Assembly (NCBI GenBank): GCA_964036665.1
Contig: OZ038530.1
Location: 16,204,001 to 16,268,000, forward strand
DNA from: Gordius sp. MW1
Lineage: Eukaryota; Nematomorpha; Gordioida; Gordea; Gordiidae
Length of the DNA stretch: 64,000 nucleotides
Reading direction: 5' to 3'
Shown here: positions 7,691 to 48,639 of the stretch, in pieces
Layout: each line of letters starts with the position of its first letter
Numbering within the stretch: the first letter of the stretch is position 1
Notes under the pieces: model-generated
What the model was told of the DNA's origin: nothing
The model's database searches: none
What the model saw: only the letters and a program-made list of their open reading frames with translations
Position numbers and translations under genes: made by a program

Positions 7691-9480
7691 AAATATTATG
7701 TGCTTACATACAAACTTACTTATGAATTTTAGTCAACATCTTAAATATTCCACTGCTGATACCTTTATAGATAAGATACAAACATGCAATTGGTGCGTTA
7801 ACGAATCATTCCAGTAATTTAAAAAATTTCATGCAGCCGATTATTAAATTTGCTTAAAAATATTATTGTGAGGGTGTGGATTTGGCAAAGTGGGTTCTGG
7901 GGGAAGCTAGTTCCAAGAATGGGTTAGCTGGGGAAGTGAGATGGGGTGGAAATTGTCAGAAGGGGAAATATGGAGGGTTTGAGGGTGTGGATTTGGAAAA
8001 GTGGGTTTAGGGGAAGCTAGTGGCAGGGGTTGAATTCATTTGTGGTTTTTCATTTCAAGTATTAGGGTGTTCCTGGCATATTGGATCTCCTGAATTTATG
8101 GACCCTGGGAATAATCCTATCCTCCCCGCACTGTAGAGAAACCAGTTAGCATATCTCCATAGAATAATGTTTCCCTTTTCATTGAATTAACATCATAAGT
8201 TCTTATTATCCCTTGAATTCTCATTGAATTAACATCATAAGTTCTTATTATCATCTCTTTTCCTCCTTAGAATTAAGCACTGAATTTTGTATTCTTTCTT
8301 CACTCTTTTTGTTCAATAACCTTGGTTTAATTGAGGCTTGAGTTGTTCAAACACGATCACCATTTATTAGAAATAATAGATAGGAGGGGTGTGGAAACTA
8401 ATGAACAAAGGATTAGAAGGATAAGAATAAAAACATATGGTTATTACCAACTCGGATTTGGCTAACAATATTAAAACATATAATTATAGCAATAATATAA
8501 TCTGTAGCAAATGATATACAAATAAAAGTTATACTAAATTACTATTCTTCTTTCACGTATACACATATACGACAAATTAGAAACAGATTTTTATAGAGTT
8601 AGACATTACTCATTATTAATTAAATTTTTTTATATAAAATTAAACCACCCTCCCATGGAGTAATCTTGAACACGACCTGGTTATATTATGACTTTTAACG
8701 CCTAAATTGGTAGTTGAGTTATGTCAAAATTGATCCAAATATATTAATTTTAATATAATTTCAATCAAAAAGTCACGTATTCCCCGCTAACTAAGAAGAA
8801 AATTCGTGACTTCGCTAATAAGCCATATAATTAAATGGATACTATACACTCGTAAATATCATAGGCAACTTAGTTAAAATTCGAAGGGAAAATTCACGGA
8901 GAAATTAATTTTGTTTTTGCATCTTGATATACTAATGTGAATTTTAAGGGCAGCCTATTTTGACATGTAGGCATAAAGCTTTTAAAAATAATACATTTAT
9001 AAAATGATTAATGATATACTATCAATTTGAAAGCTTTCAACATCAACACATTTTTTGTAAAATCATTATTACATATATACTTTAATGTTACATTTCATAA
9101 AATAAATATTTATTTAAAAAAGTTAATGTTATGATATACTTGTGTTGTGTTATATATTCAAATTTACCCTTTTAATATGACAAATATTGACCCTCATTTT
9201 GCGATATATACTATCTCTCACCTTAACGAACATTCGCTCATCTATCAGCCCAATTAAAATGAACAATTACCACTGATAATTAATGGTCGATCTTTGAGGA
9301 TGAAAAACATTTCACAATGGCCTAACTTGAACGTGATCCAATCGATTCATATAATTACGATTATTGGAAAACCAATATTATAAATAATTGTAGTTCAGAA
9401 TTTTCGAAAAAATATCTTTTATTTGGCAAAGATTCACTTTTTTGTGTTTGTGCCAAAAAAGAAAAGCATTAAATATTTTT
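7691..9480. other. Upstream region of receptor gene 1
   Basis: Non-coding. It holds an imperfect G-rich direct repeat (gagggtgtggatttgg.. at about 7871 and 7982) and a near-perfect short direct repeat of cattgaattaacatcataag at about 8178 and 8219. No convincing core promoter can be assigned by eye. Confidence 0.5.
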
Positions 9481-10707
9481 ATGACTTTACTTAGTCAAAA
9501 GCAGAACACATCCTTATTCGACAATAATTACATATCAAACTGTTCCGAATGGAGTACCCTTCAACTAAGATCTTCAAAAAGTTTAAATACATTAGCCACC
9601 TCTTCTTACGTTATTTTTGCCTTCTCGCTAGTTGGAAATGCTCTAGGATTATACATGGCCTATCGAGAAAAGGGTAGTTATGTCAGAGTTGTCCTGGTAA
9701 GAGCCCTTTATCTCATAAATCTTATTAATTGTGTCTTCATGATCATGTACCCTATAATGGACATTACGGGGGAACTAAGGTTGGCTCCTTTTTGGTTAAC
9801 TTACGCATGGAAGTATTACATGGCAAGCATACATTTTCCATTGGCCAAAGCATTTATAACCGCCTCCTTCTTCATACACTTTTTGTTTGCCCTGAACCAG
9901 TATGTGGCCACCAGATTTCCATTTTCGTACAAGTCTTACTTCACACTCCGAAACGTTAGGCTTATGATAATAGCGGCATACTTATATTCACAAATTTGGT
10001 TCATACCCGCTACTTTATGGTTTATTGTAGATTCGCACGCCATATGTGGCCTGAATATTTCTACCAAAATCTACACTAGGCATCTGATGGAATTTAAAAG
10101 GGACAACATCGAAAGGTCAATGATCGTGTACGGTATTGTCAAGGAATGTGCAACCAAATTTATCCCCGCCTTTATCATAGCGATAATTCAAATTCTAATT
10201 ATTAAGCAACAAAAAATTAAAATGGCTTGGCGACTTTCCACACGCTCAACGTCTCTGAACACTATTAAACCTGATTCCAAATTTTCCGCAAACATTTTGA
10301 GCCTTAGAACGTCTGTAATAAATATAGCTAATCCTGTTATAAATGAAGCAAGAGAAAAGGTGAGGAAGCGAAAGATTCAAGAAATATCTGATAGCATCAA
10401 AATGATGACTGTACTAATGCTGGAATTTATTTTTTTATTATTCCCCGCCTCCTTGTACGTTATCATAATAGATTTTATTAATGATACTTTAACAGCAACT
10501 TACGCTCACTTAGGATTCGATATATTTACTCTTCTAGAGTATCTCTACGTAACTCTTACCTTTTATTTAAATCTAATATTCGTATCTCGATACCGGAGAC
10601 ATTTTATGCACACCTTAAGTAAATGGAAAATCTATAGGAGTTATAAAGATTTATACGATAAGTGTGTAAATAAGAAAATGCCAAAAAATAAAGTGGGACC
10701 AAGGTAG
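9481..10707 (+). CDS. Divergent seven-helix G-protein-coupled receptor, paralogue 1
   Basis: A single-exon 408-aa membrane receptor. An upstream ATG at 9442 would add 13 residues; 9481 is preferred because it gives nearly the same length as the 409-aa paralogue at 34362. Seven hydrophobic segments lie at about residues 39-60, 69-93, 117-142, 153-175, 210-235, 305-331 and 350-372. GPCR landmarks are the GN pair in helix 1, conserved W/P in helix 4, P in helix 5 (FIPA) and P in helix 6 (LLFPASLY). Odd points: the DRY box is replaced by NQY followed by VATRFPF, the helix-7 NPxxY is replaced by LNLIF, and the usual cysteine at the start of helix 3 appears absent although CGL follows helix 4. It probably signals at the plasma membrane. 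The ligand is unknown; peptide-type receptors are one guess. Confidence 0.85.
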   Translation: MTLLSQKQNTSLFDNNYISNCSEWSTLQLRSSKSLNTLATSSYVIFAFSLVGNALGLYMAYREKGSYVRVVLVRALYLINLINCVFMIMYPIMDITGELRLAPFWLTYAWKYYMASIHFPLAKAFITASFFIHFLFALNQYVATRFPFSYKSYFTLRNVRLMIIAAYLYSQIWFIPATLWFIVDSHAICGLNISTKIYTRHLMEFKRDNIERSMIVYGIVKECATKFIPAFIIAIIQILIIKQQKIKMAWRLSTRSTSLNTIKPDSKFSANILSLRTSVINIANPVINEAREKVRKRKIQEISDSIKMMTVLMLEFIFLLFPASLYVIIIDFINDTLTATYAHLGFDIFTLLEYLYVTLTFYLNLIFVSRYRRHFMHTLSKWKIYRSYKDLYDKCVNKKMPKNKVGPR

Positions 10708-16080: not shown

Positions 16081-16400
16081 TGTAGAGGCTCTTTCCCTCG
16101 CTTGTACTTAACCATAACGTGATTTTTATTTTAATAGCCCCTCGCTTGTACTTAACCATCACGTGATTTTTATTTTAATAGCCCCTCGCTTGTACTTAAC
16201 CATCACGTGATTTTTATTTTAATAGCCCCTCGCTTGTACTTAACCATCACGTGATTTTTATTTTAATAGCCCCTCGCTTGTATTCAACCATCGCCTGATT
16301 ATTCAAATGATAATGGGCTCGCGCAGCTACATAAGCACAACCTTTAAAACTACCAAATTATTATTCGTTTTTTCGCTAAATAATGAAATAAACTACTTCA
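16081..16400 (+). repeat. 5' LTR of the Gypsy element
   Basis: 320 bp, TG...CA. It contains tandem copies of a 44-bp unit (cccctcgcttgtacttaacc.. to ..ttttaatag) from about 16097 to 16300, several of which carry the palindromic cacgtg word (E-box-like). It has one unit fewer than the 3' LTR. Confidence 0.93.
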
Positions 16401-16402
16401 TT

Positions 16403-16411
16403 TGGTGACCC
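16403..16411 (+). other. Primer binding site of the Gypsy element
   Basis: tggtgaccc lies two bases inside the 5' LTR and starts with the TGG complementary to a tRNA 3' CCA end. The same word lies beside the LTR of the relic at 57565-57582 (minus strand). The tRNA species cannot be assigned from nine bases. Confidence 0.6.
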
Positions 16412-16415
16412 AAAA

Positions 16416-17213
16416 ATGTCCACGCAACCATCTGATATGGAGGTTAAAAGCGAAAATGCCACATATTTTAAACTGCCACAGTTTAACAATATAAACCCCC
16501 GCTCATGGTTCATCCAAATAGAGGCTCTTTTCTTGGTAAGAAAGATAAAAAGCGAAGCTACCAAAGTTGGGTACTTAATAGAAGCCTTGCCACTGGAAAT
16601 AACCATCGAAATTCAAGACATCCTACAAAATATGCCCGACATTTTACCCTATACAACCATGAAAGCAGCCATCATAGACCGCACTAGCCAATCCGATTCT
16701 GCTAGACTTCGTGCTCTTCTCACAACTGTCGAATTAGGAGATCGCACCCCATCCCAGCTTCTGCGTTTCGTGAAAGTGAAAAATCTTCTGGGAACGAATT
16801 CCATGGATGAACGAGTTTTTAAAGAACTTTGGTTAGAAAAACTTCCAAAAAACATGACCGGCATTTTGGCAATTGTTTCTGACGAGCAGTCCCTCTCCAA
16901 ATTGGCCGAAACTGCGGACAAAATTGTAGAGACCTACCACAACTCCACATGTCCAATTGTAAATGTAGTCACGGAAGATGAATCGACTCGGCTTAGGGAG
17001 ATGATTGCAAAACTCACACAGGAGGTACAAAATTTAAAAATCTCAATCAATAGGCCACGTGATCGTTCCAACTCGAGACGCCGCAATCCCTCTACCGTTC
17101 GCCACCCTAGCGCGCATATTCGACCAAATATACTTTGTTGGTACCATTACCGCTTTAAAGACAAGGCGCTCAAATGCGTGCAACCTTGCGCATTTAACCC
17201 CTCCTCGACATAG
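16416..17213 (+). CDS. gag: Gag protein of the Gypsy element
   Basis: 265 aa, ATG 15 bases after the 5' LTR. It is the structural capsid-type protein that packages element RNA. Visible words include FKLPQFNNINPRSWFIQIEALF near the start, RTPSQLLRF and FKELWLEKLPKNM in the middle, and a C-terminal CWYHYRFKDKALKCVQPC that resembles the zinc-binding end of this group of invertebrate Gag proteins. The minus-strand relic at 56700-57475 has recognisably the same words (RSPSQLLRLV, SKELWLDKLPYEL). Gag ends 14 bases before the pol ATG, and the reading frames differ. Confidence 0.9.
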   Translation: MSTQPSDMEVKSENATYFKLPQFNNINPRSWFIQIEALFLVRKIKSEATKVGYLIEALPLEITIEIQDILQNMPDILPYTTMKAAIIDRTSQSDSARLRALLTTVELGDRTPSQLLRFVKVKNLLGTNSMDERVFKELWLEKLPKNMTGILAIVSDEQSLSKLAETADKIVETYHNSTCPIVNVVTEDESTRLREMIAKLTQEVQNLKISINRPRDRSNSRRRNPSTVRHPSAHIRPNILCWYHYRFKDKALKCVQPCAFNPSST

Positions 17214-17227
17214 TAGACCACCCAGGG

Positions 17228-20200
17228 ATGGCGACGCCTGGACTTGGTCTAAAACTTAGTCGCCTATTTTACATATTCGACAAATCCACGGGTCAGCGAT
17301 TTCTCATTGACACAGGAGCGGAAATTTCCGTTATTCCGCCTTCTCGAGACCATTCCTTGACCCCTTCATATGTGCAACTTCAGGCCGCCAATTCTACCCC
17401 TATCAAAACATATGGCCAAAAGCTTTTCACTTTGGACCTCGGCCTACGCAAAGAATTTAGATGGATTTTTACAATAGCAGACGTTAAACAGCCAATCATC
17501 GGAGCCGATTTTCCTAATCACTACCATCTAGTAGTTGATATAAAAAAGAAGCAGCTCTTCGACACTCAAACGACATTAACATCTGCAGGCAAGGCTACAC
17601 TCGCTACGTCAATCAACATACAAGTTGGGATAATTGGCACCTCCCCCATCAAATCACTACTTCAGAAGTATGCCTCCATAGTGTCCCCTTCTGATTATAA
17701 GGCTCAAGTAACTCATAGCACTCAACACCATATCCACACCAACGGCCCCCCGGTTCGCTCAAAACCAAGGAGACTCTTCCCGGACAAGCTTAAGATTGCC
17801 CGAGACGAATTTACTCACATGCTCGAACTTGGTATAATCCGTCCCTCTAACAGTGACTGGTCCTAACCCCTGCACATGGTACCCAAGAAGGCCGCGGGAG
17901 ATTGGAGACCTTGTGGCGACTATCGCATGCTCAACAGTCGTACAATTCCCGACTGTTATCCACTTCCCCACCTCCATGATTTTGCGCTGACCCTTTGCAA
18001 TAAAACGGTATTCTCAAAGATCGACTTAGTCAGGGCATACCACCAAATTCCAATGGCCCCCGAGGATATTTCTAAAACCGCCATCACAACCCCGTTCGGT
18101 CTTTTTGAATTTCTTCGCATGCCATTTGGCCTTCGCAACGCTGCCCAGACGTTTCAACGCTTTATGGACCAAGTTTTTAGAGAACTTGACTTTGTTTTTG
18201 TTTACCTTGACGACGTACTCATCTCGAGTTCTTCCATTGATGAACACCACAATCATATTAGCCTGGTTTTTGAAAGACTCAAGTCTTTTGGTATTAAAAT
18301 CAGTCAGGATAAATGCGTATGGTGTCAAAACGAAATTAATTTTTTGGGACACAAAATCACCCCTCAAGGTTTGTCACCCCTTCAGAACAAGGTGGAAGCA
18401 ATCCTCAATTTCCCACAGCCTACTTCGATGACTCAGTTGAGACGCTTCTTAGGGATGATTAATTTTTATAGACGGTTTATTCCGATGTGTGCCGATTTAC
18501 TCAAACCTCTCCCCGATTTGCTCGACGGTTCAAAGAAGACAATTTCCTGCACCCCGGAAGCTTCGACTGCTTTTAACAACGCCAAACTCGCTTTAAGCAA
18601 TGTCGTGCCTCTCTCCCATCTTCAAAAAGACACTCAACTCTCAATCACCACCGACGCCTCCAACTCAGCTGTAGGAGCCGTATTACATCAAACATCTAAC
18701 GGTAATACGCTGCCTTTGGCCTTTTTTCCCCAAAAGCTAACAAAAACTCAACAACGATACAGTGCATTCGGTCGCGAATTATTAGCAATATATTTAACAA
18801 TCCGCCATTACCGCCATCTTTTAGAAGGTCATGAATTCACTATTTATACAGACCACAAGCCACTAACTTATGCTTTCAGTACACCTATTGACAAATACTC
18901 CCCGCGGGAGATTAGACAGTTGGACTATATTTCGCAATATACTACCGACCTCCAATATATAGCTGGCAAATCAAATGTAGTCGCTGACACCCTCTCAAGG
19001 TCTGAAATTAATTCCGTTGATTTTAAAGACATGCCCCTAGTAGAAAGGTTAGCTTTGGCTCAGATAGAAGAAAAGTCGGCATTTCAGGACCTAAAGTCCC
19101 TAAAATTAACGCAACTTCCTATACCTGGCTCTGATTTGACCGTGCAATGCGACATGTTCACAACCTCACCTCGACCACTCGTTCCAACTTCACTCAGACG
19201 CGTAATTTTTGATAACTTCCACAACTTATCACACCCTGGTACGCGTGCAACACTTAAGCTGATTTCACGTCGATATGTTTGGCCCTTTATCAATATGGAT
19301 GTAAGGAAATGGACCAAATCATGCGTTGCTTGTCAAAAATCGAAGATTCATCGTCACATAAAAGCCCCTTTAGGCACATTTGCTGAACCTGACGCTCGAT
19401 TTAGCCACATCCACCTCGATCTCGTTGGTCCACTACCACCGTCGAATGGATATACCCACTTACTCACCATTATTGACCGTTTCACACGATGGCCTGTCGC
19501 CATGCCGATCCGTGACACCTCAGCCCAAACGGTTGCAAAAGCTCTGATCAAGTATTGGATAGCTGACCTCGGAGTACCATCAAGCCTCACAACAGATAGA
19601 GGTCCCCAGTTTGAGTCCCAATTATTTCGGAATCTCACGCAACTCCTTGGTGTAAATCACATCACAACCACTGCCTATCATCCACAAGCCAACGGCATGA
19701 TTGAGAGATTCCATCGACAGTTGAAAAGTTCCTTGATGGCACAAGGTGACACAAACAAATGGGATGAGCTCCTACCATTAATTTTGCTTGGCATTCGAAC
19801 CACAATCAAGGAAGACTTAGGTTGCACTCCAGCCGAATTAGTTTATGGCACTACACTTAGACTTCCCGGCGAATTTTTCACGAACTCAAGAACACCTCAT
19901 AACGCCTCCGAATTTATTAAATGCCTAAAACAACATTTTTACCAGTTACCTTTTAAAAAAGTCAGGACACAATTGACAAATGCGAGTACAACTTCACTTC
20001 TTAGGGACTGTAAATACGTTTTTATCCCTAATGATTTCGTTCGAAAAAGTTTAGTGCCACCATATGACGGCCCGTTCAGAGTAAAGTCCAAACATGCTAA
20101 ATATTTCATTATTGAAAAAAACGGAAAAGCTGACTCAGTTTCGATCGAGCGATTGAAACCTGCATATTTAGATACTTCAACTCAGCCGCTTACGGACGAA

Positions 20201-20344
20201 AATGTAAATCCACCCAAAGTTTGTCCCTCCGACGACATCGCCGGACCAGCTAACTCCGACCCAGACCTAACAAAATCAAAAGAAAACCCATACATCACAT
20301 CGAGAGGAAGGCACGTGCATTGGCGCTATAAACTACTACACTAG
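17228..20344 (+). CDS. pol: Pol polyprotein of the Gypsy element, one in-frame stop
   Basis: Two open parts, 17228-17866 and 17876-20344, are in the same frame and separated by a TAA at 17864-17866. Together they would be about 1,038 codons. Order: aspartic protease with [13 protein letters not shown] (about 17308); reverse transcriptase beginning around the stop, with [24 protein letters not shown] and the catalytic YLDD (18203-18214); RNase H with [13 protein letters not shown] and [11 protein letters not shown]; integrase with an HHCC zinc region ([15 protein letters not shown]), DDE residues in [16 protein letters not shown] and [11 protein letters not shown]; and a GPY/F-like end ([12 protein letters not shown]). 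It copies element RNA and integrates the cDNA. The stop falls between protease and RT, where a Gag-Pol of this class is continuous, so it is most likely a mutation. Confidence 0.93.
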
Positions 20345-34361: not shown

Positions 34362-35591
34362 ATGAATTATTTACCAAATAATTATTCACTTATCGCCCAT
34401 TCTCAGGGCTTAAATTGTGTTGAATGGAGCACATATGAACGAAGATCGTCAAAAAGTTTGCTTTCACTATTGATATTATCGTACGTTATCTTCGCATTTG
34501 CTCTAGTTGGAAATTTTCTCGGTTTTTACATGGCATGTAAGGAGAAACCTATTTTGATACGAGTTATTCTTATGAGAGCTCTGTTCTTCATAAATCTTAT
34601 AAATTGTGTTTTTATGTTGATGTACCCTATCATCGACATTACAGGCGAGTTAAGGATGCAAACCTTTTGGTTAAACTATGCATGGAAACATTACATGTCA
34701 AAAATACATTTTCCGTTAGCCAAATCCTTCATCAACGCGTCTTTTTTCATATATTTTTTGTTTGCGGTCAATCAGTTTGTGGCTACCAGGTTTCCCTTTT
34801 TATACAAGAGCCATTTTAATATTCGAAAGGTTAAATTCATGATAATAGCTGCCTACGCATATGTTCAAATATGGTTTATACCCGCTGCTTTCTGGTTTAC
34901 CGTCGCCTTTTACAACAACAAGTGTGGTCTCAAAAAGACCTCCGGAATCTACACTAGACAACTACTCATATACAAAAACGATCGCATCAAACGTTCGTGG
35001 ATTATGTACGGGGTTGTCAAAGAGTTTGCAACCAAATTTATACCTGTCGTCATCATAGCTATTTTTCAGATAATGATAATTAAGCAACAAAAAGTAAAAA
35101 TGGCTTGGAGACTATCTAGTATATCTGATAGCACACATACTAGTCCCAAAACTACCTATCGAGTTCATTCAATCAACTGGAAACATAAGGCTCCAGTGAT
35201 TAATTTAACTACTCCCGTTATTAATCAGGCGAGACAAAGAGCCAGGGACAGAAAGGCTCAAGAGATTGCCGAAACCATAAAAATGATGACTGTTCTAATG
35301 TTGGAATTTATTTTATTACTGTTTCCAGCTTCATTGTATATCATGATCATAGATTTAATCGATAACCCTTTCACAAATACCGACAATGACTTGGCATATG
35401 ATTTATGTGCTTTATTGGAATATCTTTACGTGACTCTTACTTTTTATCTAAAATTAATGTTTATAAAGGGGTATAGAAAAAATTTTATGCTTGAGATGAA
35501 GAAATGCAAATTGTATTTAATCTGCAAAAGGTTATACGAAAAGTTTGTTTTACATAAAACGCATAATAATAGAATTTGGCCATTTAAATAA
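34362..35591 (+). CDS. Divergent seven-helix G-protein-coupled receptor, paralogue 2
   Basis: 409 aa, single exon, same orientation as the receptor at 9481 and co-linear with it throughout (WSTYERRSSKSL, SYVIFAFALVGN, FINLINCVFMLMYPIIDITGEL, IHFPLAKSFINASFF, KMMTVLMLEFILLLFPASLY). Identity in helices 1-3 is around 70 percent by eye, while intracellular loop 3 and the C-terminus differ more. It shares the odd motif set: NQF-VATRFPF instead of DRY, LKLMF instead of NPxxY, and no obvious helix-3 cysteine. The basic stretch KQQKVKMAWR after helix 5 and RQRARDRKAQEIAETIK before helix 6 suit G-protein contact. Function and ligand are unknown. The overlapping 71-, 65- and 62-aa frames are shadows. 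Confidence 0.85.
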   Translation: MNYLPNNYSLIAHSQGLNCVEWSTYERRSSKSLLSLLILSYVIFAFALVGNFLGFYMACKEKPILIRVILMRALFFINLINCVFMLMYPIIDITGELRMQTFWLNYAWKHYMSKIHFPLAKSFINASFFIYFLFAVNQFVATRFPFLYKSHFNIRKVKFMIIAAYAYVQIWFIPAAFWFTVAFYNNKCGLKKTSGIYTRQLLIYKNDRIKRSWIMYGVVKEFATKFIPVVIIAIFQIMIIKQQKVKMAWRLSSISDSTHTSPKTTYRVHSINWKHKAPVINLTTPVINQARQRARDRKAQEIAETIKMMTVLMLEFILLLFPASLYIMIIDLIDNPFTNTDNDLAYDLCALLEYLYVTLTFYLKLMFIKGYRKNFMLEMKKCKLYLICKRLYEKFVLHKTHNNRIWPFK

Positions 35592-38500: not shown

Positions 38501-39468
38501 TTTCCCTGTATTGCATATTGTGTATCTCAATGTACATACCACAAATTATATAATAAATATTTTATAAATAAATTTTAAATCAATTGCAAGGTGTGTATTT
38601 GAAGCCACAACCCATATTTTCGATTTGAATGTTAATATGGCCCACGTGATCTATCATATATTTTTAATTTCGCATTTTATTAATTCCCTTTTTTAAAAAT
38701 GGCGATTTTGTTAAAAAAATTTTCTTCTCAATTTTTTACACATCGTAAAAGTATAAAAAATATATTTGACAAATTTCAAAACATTAAAATTAGATAAATA
38801 AAAGGTAAAAATTAATGTTTATGAAATTATTTTATATATATAATATTATTTTTGATAATTATATTTTGTAATAATCATACGTTGCTTTGTATTTTATTTG
38901 AGTTATATTTTTAGAATTATAAATTGTGGTACCATACCTAATGACAGTGAATCGTCTGATAAGGAGTTTCTGTCAACCCAAAATAATGATTTAGGTATAA
39001 TTAAAAGGGTGTTATTTAACTCCTAAGTAAAAAATTACAAATTGCTAATAATTTATGCTAAATATATTAATTAATGTGCTAAATATTTTATTAAAAAATG
39101 CTAAGTATTTTATGCTAAGTTTTTTAATCTAAAGGCTATGTATTTTAAAGGAAATGCTAAGTTTTTATTTTAAAATGCTAAGTTTTTTTTATTAAATTGC
39201 TAATATTTATGTTTTACTCCCACAAATAATTGTTTTATAGATTTTCATGAAAATTAAAATGTTCAAACATTTAATATTTGTTATATTTATATAAAATTAT
39301 ATATAATTATAGTTTAGAGTATAATAAAAATTATTGTGACATGTGGATTAATATTATCTGAAATATTATTTATTAGTTTTTTTTTGAATAGCCGTTCTCA
39401 TCACTCACTGAGTATTTTTAAGTTAAGCTTAATAAATGTGATACATAATAATGCAGTTATATAATTAA
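35592..39468. other. Long intergenic region
   Basis: AT-rich and without recognisable genes. A G run lies at about 36412-36421. The 72-aa minus frame at 37155-37373 has no family features. This is the longest stretch in the window in which I see neither a gene nor a classifiable transposon, apart from the short repeat at 39035-39210. Confidence 0.4.
39035..39210. repeat. Degenerate short tandem motif (tgctaag/aatttt)
   Basis: The words atgctaaatat, tgctaagtattt, atgctaagtttttt recur about seven times at irregular spacing of 15-35 bases. Confidence 0.5.
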
Positions 39469-39651
39469 CTAGCTGACCCGGTGTGGTACGACAGAAGCAA
39501 GCCATGTTTTTTAAGAGCTGTCAATCAATCATTTTGACTGACATATTTTTTACTAAAGGTCCATTTTCGCTATTTTTACGTGTTATGTTTATCGTTTATA
39601 ATAAATTAAGTTTAGACTAGCATATTATTTACTATTTTGGTTTGTAAATTT

Positions 39652-39758
39652 TGATAAAGCTGGAAATAATTTAGGTTGGTTTCTCAAGTAAAATATTATT
39701 TATTTTTATAAATTTTGATAAAACTGGAATCTACTTTAGGTTGGTTTCTCCCCCCTTC
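39652..39758. repeat. Two-copy direct repeat near the left end of the Ginger element
   Basis: gataaagctggaa..tttaggttggtttctc (39652-39685) recurs 66 bp later as gataaaactggaa..tttaggttggtttctc (39718-39751). It may be subterminal repeats used by the transposase; that role is inference. Confidence 0.6.
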
Positions 39759-39813
39759 CCCATAAAAATTAATATTTTTTAAATAGACTAATCATTATAA
39801 GTTTTATTCAAAA

Positions 39814-40777
39814 TTATGCTAAAAGACAATCATTAATGTATTCAAAATGGTTGGCATAATGCGTAATGTAAATACCAAATTTTGAAGTATTATATAAACG
39901 TGGGGAATATAAGGCCCAACATTTTAGTTCAAGATTATATACATAAATTGTAACATCAAAAATGGTCGCGACTAAAACATGTCGATTTCCGATGACCATG
40001 TTCCAAAAATTTCTTTGTTGGTACCAACAAAATGATCGAATACATTACGATATGGATAAACGAATGGCAACGTGTCAATAAAATTTAAACGATGAAAAAC
40101 AAATTGTCGAATCACAAAATGGTGATCTTGATCCTTGTAAATTGCCTGACTTACGCACCGATAAAAACAATTTCCATCAGGATTAATGTTTTTTATATCA
40201 AATGGCGGACATAATCTTTTAGAAATCGGTGTAGATTCTGACATTTTTTTGAGAACTCCAATCCTTAAAGAAATTAATTAGTATATACAAAAGTTAATTT
40301 AATCATACATTTTAATTTGAGAGCACTGCCATTTGTAATCTCCAGGTGTAAAAAACAATTCGCTTTGAACTTGATGGGTAAGAACAATAGAATCTTGAAA
40401 TATTAGCAAATTTAAAATTATGAAATACCGTCATCCTTAATATGTTCTTGCGACAAAGACTTTGGATTAAGGCTCATAATATCAATGTCTTGACCTAGAG
40501 TGCTAGTAAAGTTATTCACTATTTTTATACTTGTATCATCAATGCCTGAAAGTGCTTTATTATCACTGATATCAGGGGGGCACTGATCGTCATATGTATC
40601 AATATTTTCATCTGCTACAATAAATATAATTATTTAATTAATATTTTTGTCCTGTTATTCGATTTTTATTACTATTCGTGCCATTATCTTCATCTAATTT
40701 GGCCTCGTACTCATTAATAATAGGGTTTATGTGTATGCCGCTACCTGTCATGTCTCCACACATATTAACAACGTCTC
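39814..40777 (-). CDS. C-terminal exons of the Ginger gene: acidic linker plus OTU cysteine protease
   Basis: Exons in coding order are 40777-40673, 40614-40429, 40393-40309 and 40263-39814. All junctions are GT-AG and keep phase with the integrase exons. The linker is rich in D, E and N (for example DENIDTYDDQCPPDI). The last exon encodes an OTU-like deubiquitinase fold: NPDGNCFYRCVSQAIYKDQD holds the catalytic Asp and Cys, GTWSSEIDM the central motif, FDVTIYVYN a core strand and ITHYANHFEYI the catalytic His. A frameshift in a run of four T (about 39974-39977) interrupts the reading between GTWSSEIDM and VATIFD. OTU proteases cleave ubiquitin-like conjugates. A role in protecting the transposase is conjecture. 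Confidence 0.75.
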
Positions 40778-40911
40778 CTGTTGAAAAAATGGTATTAGTA
40801 CGAAAATTATAGTACCTATAGAATCTCTTTATTTCTCAGCCAGATTTTCTGGGGAAGTTTATTAAATTTATCTTTTAATAATATAAAATTAGAGAAAAGG
40901 TAATTATATAC

Positions 40912-42731
40912 CTCTTTCGTTAAATTTTTTCAGGTTACCCCCGTAACACTTTTTCTTTAAGACTTTCCCATCCAAGGTTTTTAAAGTATAGGTTCCTTGG
41001 AAATTTACAATTAAACATATAAAGTCACCTTTAAATCCTTCATCGGCTATTCTATTAGGCCCAATCCAGCTTGATGCCATCTTGTCACCCTTACGTGTGG
41101 CCCGTTTCATATTAAATGCCAACACTATATCATCCTTTTGAAATAAGTAGGCCTTTTTATGTCTTCTAGCATACTCATCTTTTTGCCTCTCTTGAGCTTG
41201 GATAATGTTTTTTATGGCACATGTGTTTATTGCCTCAACCCTAGATTTAAGGGCCTGTTCATCCCATATATCGTCATCGGATTCATCAATGTGATTGCCA
41301 CCGTCCTCTGCGCTAGTAGCAAACGGAACATTAGGTTCACATTTATACATTAGCATCCAAGGCGTGAACTTTGTGGATCTTTGTACGCTGGTTCGCAGAG
41401 CGTACAACACTCCAGGAAGTGCCACATCCCATTTTATGTTTTCCCCATCAAGTGTCTTTGTCAGTGTAGACACAAATGTTCTATTCGCCCTTTCCACAAG
41501 GCCATTTGCTTGGGGATGGTAGGCGGATGTTATGTTATGATGTATCTTTGTCAGCTTGAACAATTCGTCAGATAGGGAATTAACGAATTCCCTACCTTGA
41601 TCCGATATAACCACCTAATTATAAACTAAAAAATCATACTTTATAATTAATTACTTTAGGAAAGCCCCAGTTGCAAAACATTTCCCATAGTTTTGTGGCA
41701 GTTTCTTTCGCAGTGTGGGATGTCAAGGGTTTTGCATCAACCCATTTACTAAAATAATCCATTGCCACAAGCATGCAACAATGTCCCTGACTTGAGGTGG
41801 GCATGTTACATAAGTCAATTCCTATCTTGGCCCATGCACTTTTTGGGACCTTAATAGGGTGCAACACTAGGGTTGATTTATCTAGCTTTGTTGCCCCCTG
41901 TTGACATTGTCTGCAGGTTCGAACAAACACAGCCACATCTTTCCATAGTCTTGGCCACCAATACCTAAATACTTTATATAAATTATTTTATTATTAACTT
42001 TTCTTCAATCCGTATCGAAGTTCTATTCATCCCACAATGGGCACCTATGCTTTTCCCCACAGTCGATTCGGAAGTTCCATTGTGGAATATTTAAAATTTC
42101 CCGTTTTTCGCCTTCGTCCACAATGACCCTTAAAAACTTTTCTATAATATAAACAAAGATTTTGTAGATTTTAGTCATTTAAAATATTTTAGTTCTAATA
42201 ATATAATAGAAGCTAATAATTTAAAAAGAAAATGCCTCCTAACTAATATAAACAAAGATTTTTTTTGATTTTTATTCATTTAAAATTTTTTAGTTCTAAT
42301 AATATAATAGAAGCTAATAATTTAAAAAGAAAATGACGCTTAACTTTTCTATAATATAAACAAGGATTTTGTAGATTTTAGTCATTTAAAATATTTTAGT
42401 TTAGTTCTAATAATATAATGGAGCTAATAATTTACAAAGAAAATGACGCTTAACTTTTCTATAATATAAACAAAGATTTTGTAGATTTTAGTCATTTAAA
42501 ATATTTTAGTTCTAATAATATAATAGAAGCTAAATTTAAAAATAAAAAATTTGTTTTTTTACCTGTCACTTCAGAACCATGCCTTATGATTTTCTTATAA
42601 TACAAACGATTCTCCAAATTGAATGATTTGGCTTTTTTCCTAAGATGAAAGCGATTGTTTTTGTCAAAACTTTCTGGAATATATCCGCTTTTTAAATATT
42701 CAATTATAGTTTGGAAATCGTATTTGGACAT
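40912..42731 (-). CDS. Ginger-type integrase (transposase), four exons
   Basis: Exons are 42731-42563, 42141-41999, 41964-41655 and 41614-40912. The introns are GT-AG; two are only 34 and 40 nt. The start MSKYDFQTIIEYLKSGYIPE, followed by FRKKAK-like and LYYKK words, is typical of KRBA2/Ginger-related proteins. An HHCC zinc region spans the next two exons (FHNGTSE, IGAHCG, EEKYWWPRLW, RTCRQC). The DDE catalytic residues lie in IGIDLCNMP, VVISDQGREFVN and YHPQANGLVERANR. A GPY/F-like module (SSWIGPNRIADE..TLKTLDGKVLKK) ends the exon. One frameshift sits in exon 2 between REILNI and the first zinc His. It would catalyse cut-and-paste transposition. Absence of RT argues against a Gypsy retrotransposon. 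Confidence 0.82.
42138..42545 (-). repeat. Intronic minisatellite, four units of about 100-110 bp
   Basis: Units anchored on aatataaacaa at about 42146, 42245, 42353 and 42463 (spacing 99, 108, 110) share gattttgtagattttagtc, ttctaataatataat and gaagctaataattt. The unit overlaps the intron's 3' splice site, so the other units carry the same polypyrimidine/ATAG|AAAAG acceptor-like sequence or a variant. Confidence 0.85.
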
Positions 42732-43016
42732 TTAATGTGGTAGAAAAATTTTAATCGTCTAAAAAATTAATAAAGTTTTTTGGGGGATTTAAAGTTTAAT
42801 TTATAAAGAAATTATTCAATAGTTTAAGAGAGGGATTGGATATGAAGAGAACAATACAAATTTTAGTATGCAAAAAACTAATAATGTGTTTTTTGGGTAG
42901 TTAAAGTTTAGTATAAGGGAGGAATGATTTATTGCCTACTTAAGAACAATGTCTTATTAATAACACGATTAACGCTGGGTGTTAGCACGAGCTAAAATTC
43001 TCTCAAAAAATATCAT

Positions 43017-43090
43017 TAATCACGCCTCTACCCAATCCCATTGGAGGGAGAGAGTGTGTAAAACCAATTAATCACCCCTTTACCCAATCA
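43017..43090. repeat. Subterminal direct repeats near the right end of the Ginger element
   Basis: taatcacgcctctacccaatc (43017-43037) and taatcacccctttacccaatc (43070-43090), 53 bp apart, within 120 bp of the transposon end. They are candidate transposase binding sites by position only. Confidence 0.55.
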
Positions 43091-43138
43091 AAAGGGGTGT
43101 TTGTAAAAAATACGCTGTTAGTTCACACCCTACACCGG

Positions 43139-43962
43139 CAAACGTTGTTTTGCTATATACATTATATCTAGAAAATACTATAAGTGATGTGCATGCTCAT
43201 CGTTATGCCTCGATCATATAATATGGGAAATAATTCACGAACTTAATGTAGGAAGAATTAACACGCTAAATACAAAATATAAACAAATAATTAAGCCCGG
43301 CAAACGTTGTTTTGCCATATACATTATGTCTGGCAAATTAACTAACTTACTATAAGTGTGTGGGGATAATTTTTGCAGAAGGTTTATCTAAATTGTAGTG
43401 TTATTTTTACAATCAATGGAAGTAAACGTAAATAACTAATCTCAGGTAAAGAGTTTGTCGGGGAATGCAGGGGAGAGAAAACTTTTTATTTATTGTTTCC
43501 TGGGGGAGTTGTCGGTCTACCGGTTATATTTTCTTATCCACTTTTAAATAATACCTATATTATCATTCGCATCACTTTGTTATATATCGAATCTGTACAT
43601 ACTATAAAATTTTTTAAAAATAAATTAAAAAATTTAAATAAGAAAATTTAAAACTACCAACAAAAAAATTTAAAAACTCAACTATTAAAACTGGCAACAA
43701 AATTAATGAGCTGCCATTATTATCTCATGGCCATAGAAGCATGTAATTTATTTGGGAACACGACCTTGCATAAGTTATGTAATAACAATGTACATTATAA
43801 GAACGTATTATATAAAAAGATACAAATGTCAAACGTATGAGGGCGATGTGGGATCCATATTTCGGGTAATCAGTGATGGGAAGGCGTGGAGGTAAAACGT
43901 AGCCTAGGCTAGTGACGGTTTTTCCCGGAGGACCGTGTGAGTGGAAGCTGGGTTAAAATATT
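43139..43962 (-). other. Helitron 3' non-coding region with a second terminal hairpin
   Basis: From 43139 the sequence is the 3' subterminal part of the Helitron. At 43298-43345, cccggcaaacgttgttttgccatatacattat repeats the terminal hairpin segment, so the 3' end is duplicated about 160 bp inward, without its CTAG. The rest (to 43962) is AT-rich; nothing coding was recognised. Confidence 0.7.
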
Positions 43963-44804
43963 TTAGTGGATTGGAGCTGGAATGTGCACTTGAATACGAT
44001 CATTCATACGGCTGACAGCTGCATTTGTTGGCGCTAATATTGCGCGTTCCCGGAGCCATGTGTGATCGGTGTAGTGCGTTGCAATGTCGGGGAACACCAT
44101 AGTTTCAACAGCCTCAGGAGATGGCAGTAGGTGACAAAAGGTTGCTGGAAAGGTACTTTCCCTTGGAGACGGGGTAAATGGAAAGGTACCGTTCCCCAAA
44201 GCGGAGTTGTTGTGCAAATAAGGACGTATCCGGGAGTAAATGCACGCGCATGTTCGTAGTAAGCGTGAGGATCGTAAACTTCCACCAAAGATGGGACGCC
44301 TTCAGGCACATCCAGCTTATCAGCCGGTGTTGCTCTTGGGATAACAGGTAGTGTTTGTCGAAAATCACCGGCTAGCAACAATATGGCCCCCCCCCCATAG
44401 GGAAGTCAATTTTCCGCAAATCTCTGAGAGTACGATCTAGTGCCTCGAGCGCTTTTTTATGCGCCATCGTACATTCATCCCAAATTGATTGAGCATGTCT
44501 TTAGAACTGTCCCAATTTGCGAGTTACGACTGATATTCCAGGAAGATTTTTCAATCTGATGCAAATTTAGGGGGAGCTGGAAAGTAGAATGCGCCGTGCG
44601 GCCTCCATCGAGTAACGTCGCCGCTATACCCGATGATGCGACGGCTAAGGCTAGCTCGTTATTGGCCCGAAATTTTGCCAGTAAATGATTAAGGAGAAAA
44701 GTTTTACCAGTGCCGCTTGGAGCATCAAGGAAAAGCAGACCGCCTTTACCGGTTAAGGCGTACTGCAGTACGGTATCGTACTCGGTTTTCTGGTCGACGG
44801 TCAA
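43963..44804 (-). pseudogene. Helitron PIF1-like helicase domain, truncated
   Basis: It starts TVDQKTEYDTVLQYAL and holds Walker A in LDAPSGTGKTFLLNHLLAKF, then ALAVASSGIAATLLDGGRTAH, a frame change through the Walker B region (DECTMAHKKALEALDRT visible around 44410-44470), LLAGDFRQTLPVIPRATPADKLD, and RAILAPTNAAVSRMND near the end. Motifs beyond this point (the TINKAQGQT block seen in the other Helitron at about 14695) are absent. The domain would unwind DNA during rolling-circle transposition. At least three frame changes; inactive. Confidence 0.85.
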
Positions 44805-44806
44805 AT

Positions 44807-45720
44807 TTACTTCGCGTTCCTGTATAATGCTGCACTGATGGGTAACATCGTATTGCAGTTCGAGCCATACGTCTTTCGGTTGTACATCATGGCTGGTGCG
44901 GAGGGTTCAGGTAAACCAAATTGACATAGCATTTTATTGCTTATGGACATACATTGGTCCTCCAATAATATAAGAGCACGGTTGAAGATGTCATCGGAAT
45001 AGGAAATATCTAATGCCGGATTTGCTCTCCGAATGCGCAAAAGAACGTCCTCACTGAGGCTTTCCTTGTGCCGGTGCCACAGGTCTGTTGGATTTGACGG
45101 GACGCAGGTGGTCACAATGAACGCAAATAAATTACGGAGTTGGTGGGGGAGACATATGAGCGACGCTTCCTTTAAGATCGTATCCCAATGCTGGTCATTT
45201 TCCAGCAGCTGAAGTTCAAGACAGGCTTGTCTATACGTGGCGCACACGGTGCCTGAGATCGTTTTCAGAGCCTGAAATGATGTCGGGCCTCGGACATTGG
45301 AAGAAGCATGCGCAAATTAAAACATTCGGCCTGATTGGGATGGACTGTATACATACGTCCCAAAGCATCTGCCATATGGACGTCCGGATAGCCTGCAACC
45401 ACAGGTCCCTGTTTTCTCCGGTGAAACACCTTCCGTGCCGCGTTCCAAGTGTAATACCTCGGAACCTCGTGGTATAGCAGGGTTTGCGCGAAAGCGTCCG
45501 TTTGACACAGCTGAAAATAGGCTGTCAACGTGGCATTAGGGGGGTGTGCCACTTTGTGTACGGCGGTCGCCGGAGTGAAGTAGACACGCTGGCCGTTTTA
45601 TAAATGAACCGCGAGATGTACTACGGGCGGGTTATGTTCGTGAATGGGGAATGCGAGGATTCGCCAAACAGCCTCATTGCTGCTGATATATCGACCCATT
45701 TGAAATTAAGTAATTTCATC
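44807..45720 (-). pseudogene. Helitron protein, Rep-helicase linker region
   Basis: Ordered words are VWRILAFPIHEHNP and AVHL..NGQRVYFTP (45560-45690, with a stop), TAYFQLCQTDAFAQTLLYHEVPRYYTWN (about 45460-45540), HRRKQG, ALGRMYTVHP and FNLRMLLP, then (45247-44807) TYRQACLELQLLENDQHWD and PTDLWHRHKESLSEDVL. This is the conserved connection between Rep and helicase in animal Helitrons. A frameshift lies at about 45250-45265. Confidence 0.85.
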
Positions 45721-45733
45721 CGGGTTAGGAAAT

Positions 45734-46762
45734 TTAATTCTCTACAAATTGGTTGAAAATTTTTTCAATTTTTTTGTTCCTAGGCCAAAAACTGCCATAT
45801 CGCTGCCTTTGTTGACGTATTTGATACTTGATGGACTTTACGGAATTGCAGTACTCTACGTTTATGTGAGCCGTGAACATTTTTGCGAGTAGGGGAGAGT
45901 AAGGGACTATCCAGCTGCTGTCAATTTTGACTGGGGCATTTTTTACTATTGTGCAGGTGTGACCTCCTTCGCCGGGTGCACGCCGTCTATATAGTGGGTA
46001 GCCGTCGACGCCAGTTTTTGTTTCTTGAATCAGGCGTTTCGGATAACGTTTAGAACATTTACCTTCTTTCATGCACGGGGACGCGTTATTTATACCGCCG
46101 CAAGGTCCGTGAATCATATGCCGAGTAACAGTGGTAAACAAAACGGGATCGGCTAGCAAATCGGGTAGTTCTGCATAAATAATGCTATCTATTTGCGACG
46201 GGTAAATGGTGTCTCGGAGCCAATTTAGAATATGAGCATGGGGTAGCCCTCTTTTCTGCCATTCGATCGAGTACATCCAATAGGTAGTTTGCCCGAATAT
46301 ATGAGATTTAGCTATAAGATCAATAAGGCAACGAAGTTTTTGGCGAAAAACACGGGCGGGCAGATCGTGACGATGCGATGGTTTCTGGCCCGCCAACAGT
46401 AAATCCGCAATTTCGGGCCAGGCAGGATTGCAGGTGAAAGTTATAAACAGAGTAGGGCCGCCGAATTTACGTACATATGACATCGCGTCCTGCGTATATT
46501 CATGCATGTGACAGGGACCTCTCGTATACGTAGCAGGCATTCGACCAAGATCGGACATGTTACCATCCTTCGCAATGGCATCGCGCAGGTGAATATATTG
46601 CTCGGCCCGAAGTAATCCCTGATTAAGGCGGATGTAAAGGAGGCGTTCGCTCTCGATCTTGGCATACATGTCGACAACATATTGGTGAAATAGTTGCCGG
46701 CACCTCAAGATGTGGTTAGGTTGGTTTGCGCGTACCATTAGCCGATACGTGTAAAAATTCAT
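45734..46762 (-). pseudogene. Helitron HUH Rep endonuclease, C-terminal half
   Basis: 342-aa frame beginning MNFYTYRLMVRANQPNHILRCRQLF. It continues with RAEQYIHLRDAIAKDGN, HMHEYTQDAMSYV, LFITFTCNPAWPEI, and the metal-binding HUH motif in KRGLPHAHIL, then HGPCGG..SPCMKEGKCSKRYPK. The segment SVKSIKY near the end marks the catalytic-tyrosine region, after which the frame shifts (the other frame gives VNKGSDMAVF). Rep nicks and joins DNA at the Helitron ends. A gap of about 115 bases to the preceding block contains a possible GTAAG..AAG intron, but joining it does not keep frame. Confidence 0.88.
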
Positions 46763-46877
46763 CGCCGATACTTAGTAGACAAATACACGGATCATATAGG
46801 GGCACAAAATATGATACGCTTACCTTTTTTTGTGTAGGAGCTCGCCTAGCGGAATCTAGGCGCATTAGATTCAGTTG

Positions 46878-47655
46878 CTAGCCATCCTCTCCTTGGCAAA
46901 ACAATATGGGGTATTGCGGGGCATCGTATGATCTGTGCGTGGCATCGATGTTCTTGAGGGTTTCATCTCTTCGGCTTATTATAATATCGCCACGCTCAAA
47001 TTCGCTTCCAACCATGACGATCGCTACTTCGTCTATCGTAGACGCGTTAAAGCGTCTTTCATGTTCGCCAGGTGGCGTCCTATCAGCCTTGATAACGACC
47101 TTGTAATCGTCAGTGGGCATGCGCTCCAACGCGATTTTGAACAGGGTAACCAGATGATTTTTAGTGTGGAATAACTGCTGCAACGCGGTGACGGCGGATA
47201 ACGGTATGCATCCCGCACCGTTGATCAATTTCAGCGTCGCCCATGAAATAAATTTGAAGAAAGCCGTGGGCAGCATCAGGTACGGGGAGGAGGGGCCCGA
47301 TTAGGTGGTAAATTTGCCCTTGTACTCTAAACGTGGGCATGAAACCACCATCATTAATAATGCGCGTTGCTCCAAACGATGTCATTTGAAAGCAAGCGTT
47401 GTATTGGCGAATGTGTTCGCGAAAGTATTTGGACACAGGAGTAGCCCCAGAAACATTTAACAGCGGTTCCGGTGGCTCTTTTAAAGGTAGTAAATTGACC
47501 TTCCCATTCAAACAACACATTCCATCCGCTTCTATGCGGAACCTTAGAGCCTGACAATGTATATACAGTGTATCCATTCTGCAAATTGTGACGGAGGTAT
47601 GAAGTCTGTAATCATACGCCGAATCATACGCGAAACTAAGGTTAAATTGGCTCAC
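46878..47655 (-). pseudogene. Helitron Rep N-terminal region, frameshifted
   Basis: Frames 47655-47161 and 47276-46878 overlap and together give NLSFAYDSAYDYRLHTSVTI, HCQALRF..EADGMCCLNGKVNL (zinc-finger-like), LKEPPEPLLN, FGATRI, QIYHLIGPLLP, LQIYFMGDAE, then LQQLFHTKNHLVTLFKIALE and APTIDEVAIVM-like words, ending in FCQGEDG. This is the standard N-terminal order in animal Helitron proteins. The switch between frames occurs near 47165-47270. The shadow frames on the plus strand are not genes. Confidence 0.85.
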
Positions 47656-47662
47656 GAGCTAT

Positions 47663-48210
47663 TTCGTGTAAGCCTGGCTCGCTTCCGAAGGTCGGCCACC
47701 CGAGCGTTGCGCTTTCCGCCAGTTTCAGTTGCTCTCGACGTGGAGGCTAGGTTCCAAAGGTCGGCTAGCCGGGCGTTGCGCTTTCCGCCATTTTCAGCTG
47801 CTCTCGACGTGGAGGCTCGGTTTCAAAGGGCGGCAAGACGTGCGTTGCGTTTTTCGCCAGTTTCAGGTGCTCTCGCCGTGGAGGATCAATTTCGCTTTTT
47901 GGCCAGCCGGGCGTCGCGCTTTCCGGCAGTTTCAGCTGCTCTCGACGTGGAGGCTCGGTTCCGAAGGTCGGCCAGCCGGTTGCGCATTCCGCCAGTTTCA
48001 GTTGCTCTCGACGTGGAGGCTCGGTTCCGAAGGGCGGCAAGCCGGGCGTTGCGCTTTTTGCCAGTTTCAGCTTTTCTCGACGTGGGGGCTCGGTTCCAAA
48101 GGGCGGCAAGCCGGGCGTTGCTTTCGCCAGTTTCAGCTGCTCTGGTCTTCTTTGCGGTCTTTGTAGTACGTAGAATTTTTTTTAAGGTTTTTTTCCTCCG
48201 GGGCATATGG
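47663..48210 (-). pseudogene. Repetitive N-terminus of the Helitron protein
   Basis: From about 48207 the minus strand reads MPRRKKTLKK, followed by about six repeats of roughly 26-30 residues of the form RASTSRAAETGGKRNARLAALRN. Such R/A/E repeats precede the SFAYD region in many animal Helitron proteins and probably form helices; their role is unknown. A TGA stop at about 47888 follows KKRN, and another occurs near 47652, so the frame is broken. The plus-strand 222- and 145-aa frames over the same bases (repeating DVEARFQRSASRALRFPP) are shadows of this repeat. Confidence 0.75.
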
Positions 48211-48639
48211 GGCTGTTGGTTATAATAGGGTAAAGCAAAAGTAAAATAAAGATTGTTTAGCGTTTGGGGGGGGGGCTTAAAACAAAACAGTAGTAAAGTA
48301 GGCACCCGATTTTAGACTTAGAACCATTGTAACGACAAAATTAGTTAAGTAAGCTATTAAACTAAGCTACCATAGAGATGTTTCTTTTCGAATGTGTGTC
48401 GTACCGTTGTATTACATGTCAAAGCTTCCACAAACTGGCATTAACATGTAGATGAGATGGCGAATGTCAGTAAGAAATGAAGGTCGATTTGATATAAGCG
48501 TGTTTCTACCTCTCATTATGGTGATAGGAAACAAAAACGTTAAAGTAAATGTGTAACGATATACATTTAAAACAGTACTGAAAATAATCATTCGAGAATA
48601 CTTCAGCTTTGTATGTATGACGTCATTATTGTATATAAT

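Follow-up and report, generated by a model that had tools for sequence, protein, structure and literature searches.

The minus strand of the window (the whole 64,000-nucleotide stretch of contig OZ038530.1 of Gordius sp. MW1 analysed here) carries what is very probably, at a probability of roughly 0.92, a decayed copy of a cut-and-paste DNA transposon of Ginger1 type, belonging to a gordiid hairworm and encoding a transposase with a C-terminal OTU domain that likely removes ubiquitin. The element occupies 39482-43134 and is 3,653 bp long, with its 5' end (TGTAGGG) at 43134 and its 3' end (...ACCACA) at 39482. The placement given in an initial annotation of this DNA was exact, and the TGT..ACA ends and the CCGG duplication that it reported were read again in the sequence. 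The anatomy, ends and target site duplications, as seen directly, and the predicted exons are as follows (window positions).

39478..39481, unstranded: CCGG target site duplication, 3' side, from the sequence and the empty site
39482..43134, minus: Ginger1-type element, 3653 bp; its two ends, each read towards the inside, are TGTAG and TGTGG
39537..39567, plus: 3' arm, 55 bases inside the 3' end, of a weak and imperfect inverted repeat
39814..40263, minus: exon 8, OTU domain (DGNC, NHFEY) up to the stop codon; mid-domain frame break in the window copy
40309..40369, minus: exon 7, linker; FTPGDYKW aligns with F.P....W of the homologues
40429..40614, minus: exon 6, acidic linker
40673..40777, minus: exon 5, acidic linker
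40912..41614, minus: exon 4, second D and the E (D58D35E), GPY/F-like region (WIGPNRI)
41655..41964, minus: exon 3, H2C2 cysteines and first catalytic D
41999..42141, minus: exon 2, with the H2C2 histidines, the first of which is preceded by a frame break also present in sibling L010
42142..42562, minus: intron 1, 421 nt, four tandem repeats of about 105 nt, also in the siblings
42563..42731, minus: exon 1, N-terminal region, alignable with the part of homologues that precedes the zinc finger
43090..43122, minus: 5' arm of that inverted repeat, 12 bases inside the 5' end
43135..43138, unstranded: CCGG target site duplication, 5' side, from the sequence and the empty site

COX1 from the 14.8-kb contig of the genome has 95% identity to that of Gordius sp. 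VVA-2019 and 87% to that of Gordionus alpestris, on which the host is taken as a gordiid hairworm. The genome (211.8 Mb in 12 contigs) was searched for further copies, and seven sibling loci were compared. In five of them (L009-L012 and L014) the alignment reaches both element ends or stops no more than 5 bases short. The sequence of L013 as fetched stopped short at one end, which was read separately, and L015 is a partial copy of about 90% identity with neither element end. Copies with common ends, most of them with target duplications, diverge by 0.71-1.22%; the window copy and L010 differ by 0.71% (26 of 3,637 sites). Identical 4-bp flanks were found in five of the seven copies with both ends read, namely CCGG in the window, CCCC in L010, CCGG in L011, TCGG in L012 and CCGG in L014, and the flanks differ at L009 (CCTG/CCGG) and L013 (TTTA/CCGG). 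Ginger1 elements have TGTNR termini, here TGTAG and TGTGG, and a 4-bp duplication of CCGG or CCGT, which in the window copy is CCGG. Exact matches to the 5' end motif of the element numbered eight in the genome and four in the reversed control, and one of the eight (on C8) is by eye unrelated past the motif.

The terminal inverted repeats of about 40-270 bp that belong to Ginger1 were not found in the element, the very ends of which are inverted over TGT only. When the ends compared were 120 nt long, a weak inverted repeat about 31-33 bp in length emerged, displaced inwards and with a score of 14, equalled in 1 of 300 and 4 of 300 shuffles in two runs; the same test with ends of 60 nt and 300 nt gave no signal. 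Because long terminal inverted repeats are absent, the element is not filed as a strict member of Ginger1, and its transposase is of the Ginger1 type.

When the two flanks in the window are joined, they give a 29-base sequence that occurs 1,116 times in the genome (542 + 574) with up to two mismatches, and not at all in a reversed control. This sequence contains a hairpin, GCAAA/TTTGC, followed by CTAG, which we take to be features of a Helitron 3' end. Hence the insertion site looks like a Helitron-like 3' end, the empty form of which is repeated through the genome. The Helitron-like 3' end around the element comprises 39450-39481 and 43135-43180, and a second similar stretch lies at 43297-43338. 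Pieces of Helitrons with PIF1 and Helitron_like_N are present upstream of the insertion site on the same strand (44475-44906 and 45734-46771, minus).

The gene is modelled as eight exons on the minus strand joined at predicted splice sites, with introns 1-7 of 421, 34, 40, 134, 58, 59 and 45 nt. All seven introns start with GT and end with AG in each of the six aligned copies. The acceptors chosen first for introns 1 and 6 did not fit the siblings or the homologues; both were dropped and revised. The claim of eight exons with GT-AG junctions, integrase first and OTU domain last, therefore stands as a model with putative splicing. The claim of a frame unbroken from the start does not. In the window copy the frame of the joined exons stays open over 95 codons up to a break in exon 2 just ahead of an H2C2 histidine, and then for 582 codons from H2C2 to the middle of the OTU domain, where a second break lies in exon 8. 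The integrase and the OTU domain could instead be two separate products of one element, with the OTU protein started from its own ATG (MSESTP...), as the OTU exon has an ATG in frame, preceded by a run of A, and the splice sites between the two parts are predicted ones. However, the 582-codon stretch passes from H2C2 into the OTU domain across six predicted introns, and both domains occur in one protein (rve and OTU) in at least 18 of the 120 homologues listed, out of 262 found, which makes separate products improbable. Single proteins joining an integrase and an OTU domain occur in other genomes and metagenomes, and these fused proteins, together with the siblings, support the reading of a Ginger-type transposase joined to an OTU domain.

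A premature stop is present in all six translated copies, i.e. the window copy and five siblings, and thus a search for other copies with intact frames, as the initial annotation had proposed, gave only early stops among the siblings translated. These stops are a point against the preferred reading, as they leave splicing and function here putative. As predicted from its sequence, the window copy cannot make the whole protein. The exon-2 frame break is common to the window copy and L010 and absent from L014, as is a 9-nt difference in exon 8, and the exon-8 frame break is confined to the window copy among the seven copies read there. Since L010, which lies at another genomic site, has the same exon-2 break, the transposase that moved the window copy probably came from elsewhere, and the broken lineage has in this way probably transposed. 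The multi-exon gene, and the record of a domesticated Ginger1 gene, Imagin, in PMC12863088, would fit a domesticated host gene in place of a transposon. This was rejected as extremely improbable, given multiple copies diverged by about 1% with common ends and mostly with target duplications, and the breaks in all six translated copies.

The initial annotation had regarded copies without the OTU exons as telling against a joined element. None was found among the six siblings L009-L014, all of which keep the OTU exon, but the partial copy L015 has no match beyond about 41145 and hence lacks it, and a few OTU-only pieces are present in the genome.

Several copies have individual features. Intron 7 of L013 is enlarged by an insertion of 1.7 kb, and L009 has a 282-nt insertion in exon 8 at the place of the 9-nt difference between copies. 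Immediately beyond L014, across a common CCGG, comes a short Ginger-like element, about 0.6 kb long, with related ends and no space for a transposase. As judged by eye from its 5' flank, L009 is inserted at the 3' end of a member of another Ginger1-OTU family, that of L037-L040.

All the protein modules named in the initial annotation, i.e. the HHCC-DDE integrase, GPY/F module, acidic linker, and OTU domain with DGNC and an NHFEY-type histidine, were located. In the window copy, Pfam matches above the cut-off were obtained for Integrase_H2C2 (PF17921, 45.3 bits, E=9.4e-12) and rve (PF00665, 43.1 bits, E=5.3e-11), in agreement with the H2C2 zinc finger and DDE integrase-like core of Ginger1. 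The integrase residues D155, D213 and E249 (D58D35E), which would carry out the predicted DDE chemistry, are the same in all 14 aligned proteins. The GPY/F motif of Ginger1 is recognised by alignment with the GPY of homologues and not by a profile; the site reads GPY in siblings L010, L011 and L013 and GPN in the window copy. Ahead of the zinc finger, where Ginger1 has a YPYY motif, the alignable homologues read YP and the window copy reads YIP. Of the two C-terminal domains known in Ginger1, OTU or Ulp1, the element has OTU. The proposed check of the spliced protein against Pfam did give an OTU match, but for the window copy alone it is weak and under the curated cut-off (19.9 bits against 23.3, E=0.0011). 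At E<=0.01, PF02338 identifies an OTU domain in 12 of the 14 aligned proteins, the window protein among them. The OTU catalytic positions are kept as Asp in 14, Cys in 13 and His in 12 of the 14, the exceptions being P0001 (neither Cys nor His) and P0008 (no His). Among PDB chains, the OTU exon matches OTUD1 (4bop_A, 7.1e-5) and OTUD5 (3tmo_A, 5.5e-4). Its best match is 6dwx_A (3.6e-6), labelled RNA-dependent RNA polymerase, which is presumably a viral OTU domain.

The H2C2, rve and GPY/F parts are Gypsy-like, and RT-bearing proteins are among the weaker homologues listed, so the element was also considered as the remnant of a Gypsy LTR retrotransposon that keeps only the integrase. As the initial annotation had stated, the element has no reverse transcriptase among its open frames or its Pfam matches, and a 3.65-kb unit with constant ends and 4-bp duplications in the siblings is not what such a remnant would give. 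The integrase tree (42 rows) points the same way, with forks below firm support. Of the 18 listed rve and OTU proteins, 17 were submitted for it; P0073 was left out as short, and the tree contained no published Ginger1 sequences. The focal row groups with 14 OTU-bearing rows and five others (fork support 87/90, below the firm mark of the program), and 12 of the 13 RT-bearing rows stand apart (84/95, likewise below that mark), the remaining one being on the Ginger side. Taken together, these data led to rejection of a Gypsy origin, the likelihood of which is close to nil. The OTU label requires seven changes on the tree, and hence the OTU-bearing rows are not one clade.

The pairing of the two domains was further evident across the genome. 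A scan gave 91 OTU matches at 85 places and 150 listed integrase matches at 93 places; as 150 of 2,017 integrase candidates were scored, the integrase counts are lower bounds. An OTU domain lies within 5 kb downstream on the same strand at at least 64 of the 93 integrase places, compared with two in a reversed control, and at least 29 integrase and 22 OTU places are unlinked. From 30 of the 85 OTU places, two being left out as too short, 28 OTU pieces of other families were taken, of which 27 retain D.NC and 24 retain NHF. The dN/dS values for OTU, from 44 non-independent pairs, are all <1 and mildly so (median 0.495), with one odd row, L057, involved in 10 of the 12 pairs printed; the integrase gave no usable pairs, and the comparison was of little informative value.

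Three other Ginger1-OTU families (L037-L040, L041-L043 and L044-L046) were found in the genome. Their copies are 97.4-99.8% alike in the main blocks (seven pairs compared), and for this reason these families look recently active; their OTU frames are open. Inverted repeats, measured in four copies, are end-anchored in two families (score 25-27 over 57 bases and 15 over 40 bases) and start 17-18 bases in on both sides in the third (score 15). It is conceivable, if rather doubtful, that a hairworm lineage of Ginger1 type uses asymmetric ends for its movement, its inverted repeats having become shorter and shifted inwards, in a genome in which several Ginger1-OTU families have lately multiplied. 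If so, the lineage would be a natural system for testing what a deubiquitinase borne by a transposase does. The three other families, with near-identical copies and open OTU frames, would be better material for OTU activity than the broken window copy.

Elsewhere in the window, two similar long open frames with 7tm_1 matches, the first below the Pfam cut-off, lie at 9394-10707 and 34362-35591 (plus). A Gypsy-like element at 16392-20344 (plus) has DUF7041 (Pfam) in its first frame and, in its third, a reverse transcriptase recognised by eye and an alignable integrase. An open frame of repeated units at 47548-48225 (plus) is by eye a tandem repeat and not an evident gene. Rfam and tRNA scans of the window and a near-identity search of a phage collection gave no matches.

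In the proposed mechanism, a transposase translated from the spliced transcript would bind both ends of the element, its integrase-like DDE core would do the cutting, and insertion into CCGG-like sites would leave the 4-bp duplications. The OTU domain would most likely strip ubiquitin during transposition, its substrate being, at about even odds, the transposase itself or repair or chromatin proteins at the site. A ubiquitin/SUMO role via DNA repair was proposed in PMC2836005, and deubiquitinases borne by Helitrons were proposed in PMC9741609 (2022) to spare transposition proteins from proteasomal degradation; the latter describes transposon OTU domains as untested for activity as of 2022.

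The initial annotation had left it open whether the joining of integrase and OTU domain had been described. It is part of the paper that defines Ginger1 (Bao, Kapitonov and Jurka 2010, PMC2836005), where the definition includes C-terminal OTU or Ulp1, CCGG duplications, TGTNR ends and introns. Table 1 of that paper gives seven OTU-bearing families (Ginger1-1, -2, -3 and -11_HM, Ginger1-1_AC, Ginger1-1-AP and -2-AP), the aphid Ginger1-1-AP having four introns. No report of a hairworm Ginger was found among the titles and abstract openings of literature on Nematomorpha transposable elements, and one may still exist. The hairworm element resembles the families of PMC2836005 in its H2C2/DDE/GPY/F transposase, C-terminal OTU domain, CCGG duplications, TGTNR ends, introns, and a length within their 2.6-7 kb. 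It differs in having seven predicted introns, compared with 0-4 in the table of that paper, in lacking the 40-270 bp terminal inverted repeats given there, and in its gordiid hairworm host. The three other families of the same genome likewise have integrase then OTU, with TGTAA or TGTAG starts by CCGG or similar flanks; unlike the element, they have near-identical copies and open OTU frames, and imperfect inverted repeats that are end-anchored over about 40-57 bp in two families and displaced by 17-18 bases in the third. OTU- and VTD-bearing Helitrons, as described in PMC9741609, also join a transposon protein to a deubiquitinase-type domain, but that protein is the rolling-circle RepHel, whereas here it is an integrase. 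The striking feature of the element, integrase with OTU, is already known, and the departures in ends, intron number and host are minor; the element extends Ginger1-OTU transposons to a hairworm, in which they are numerous.
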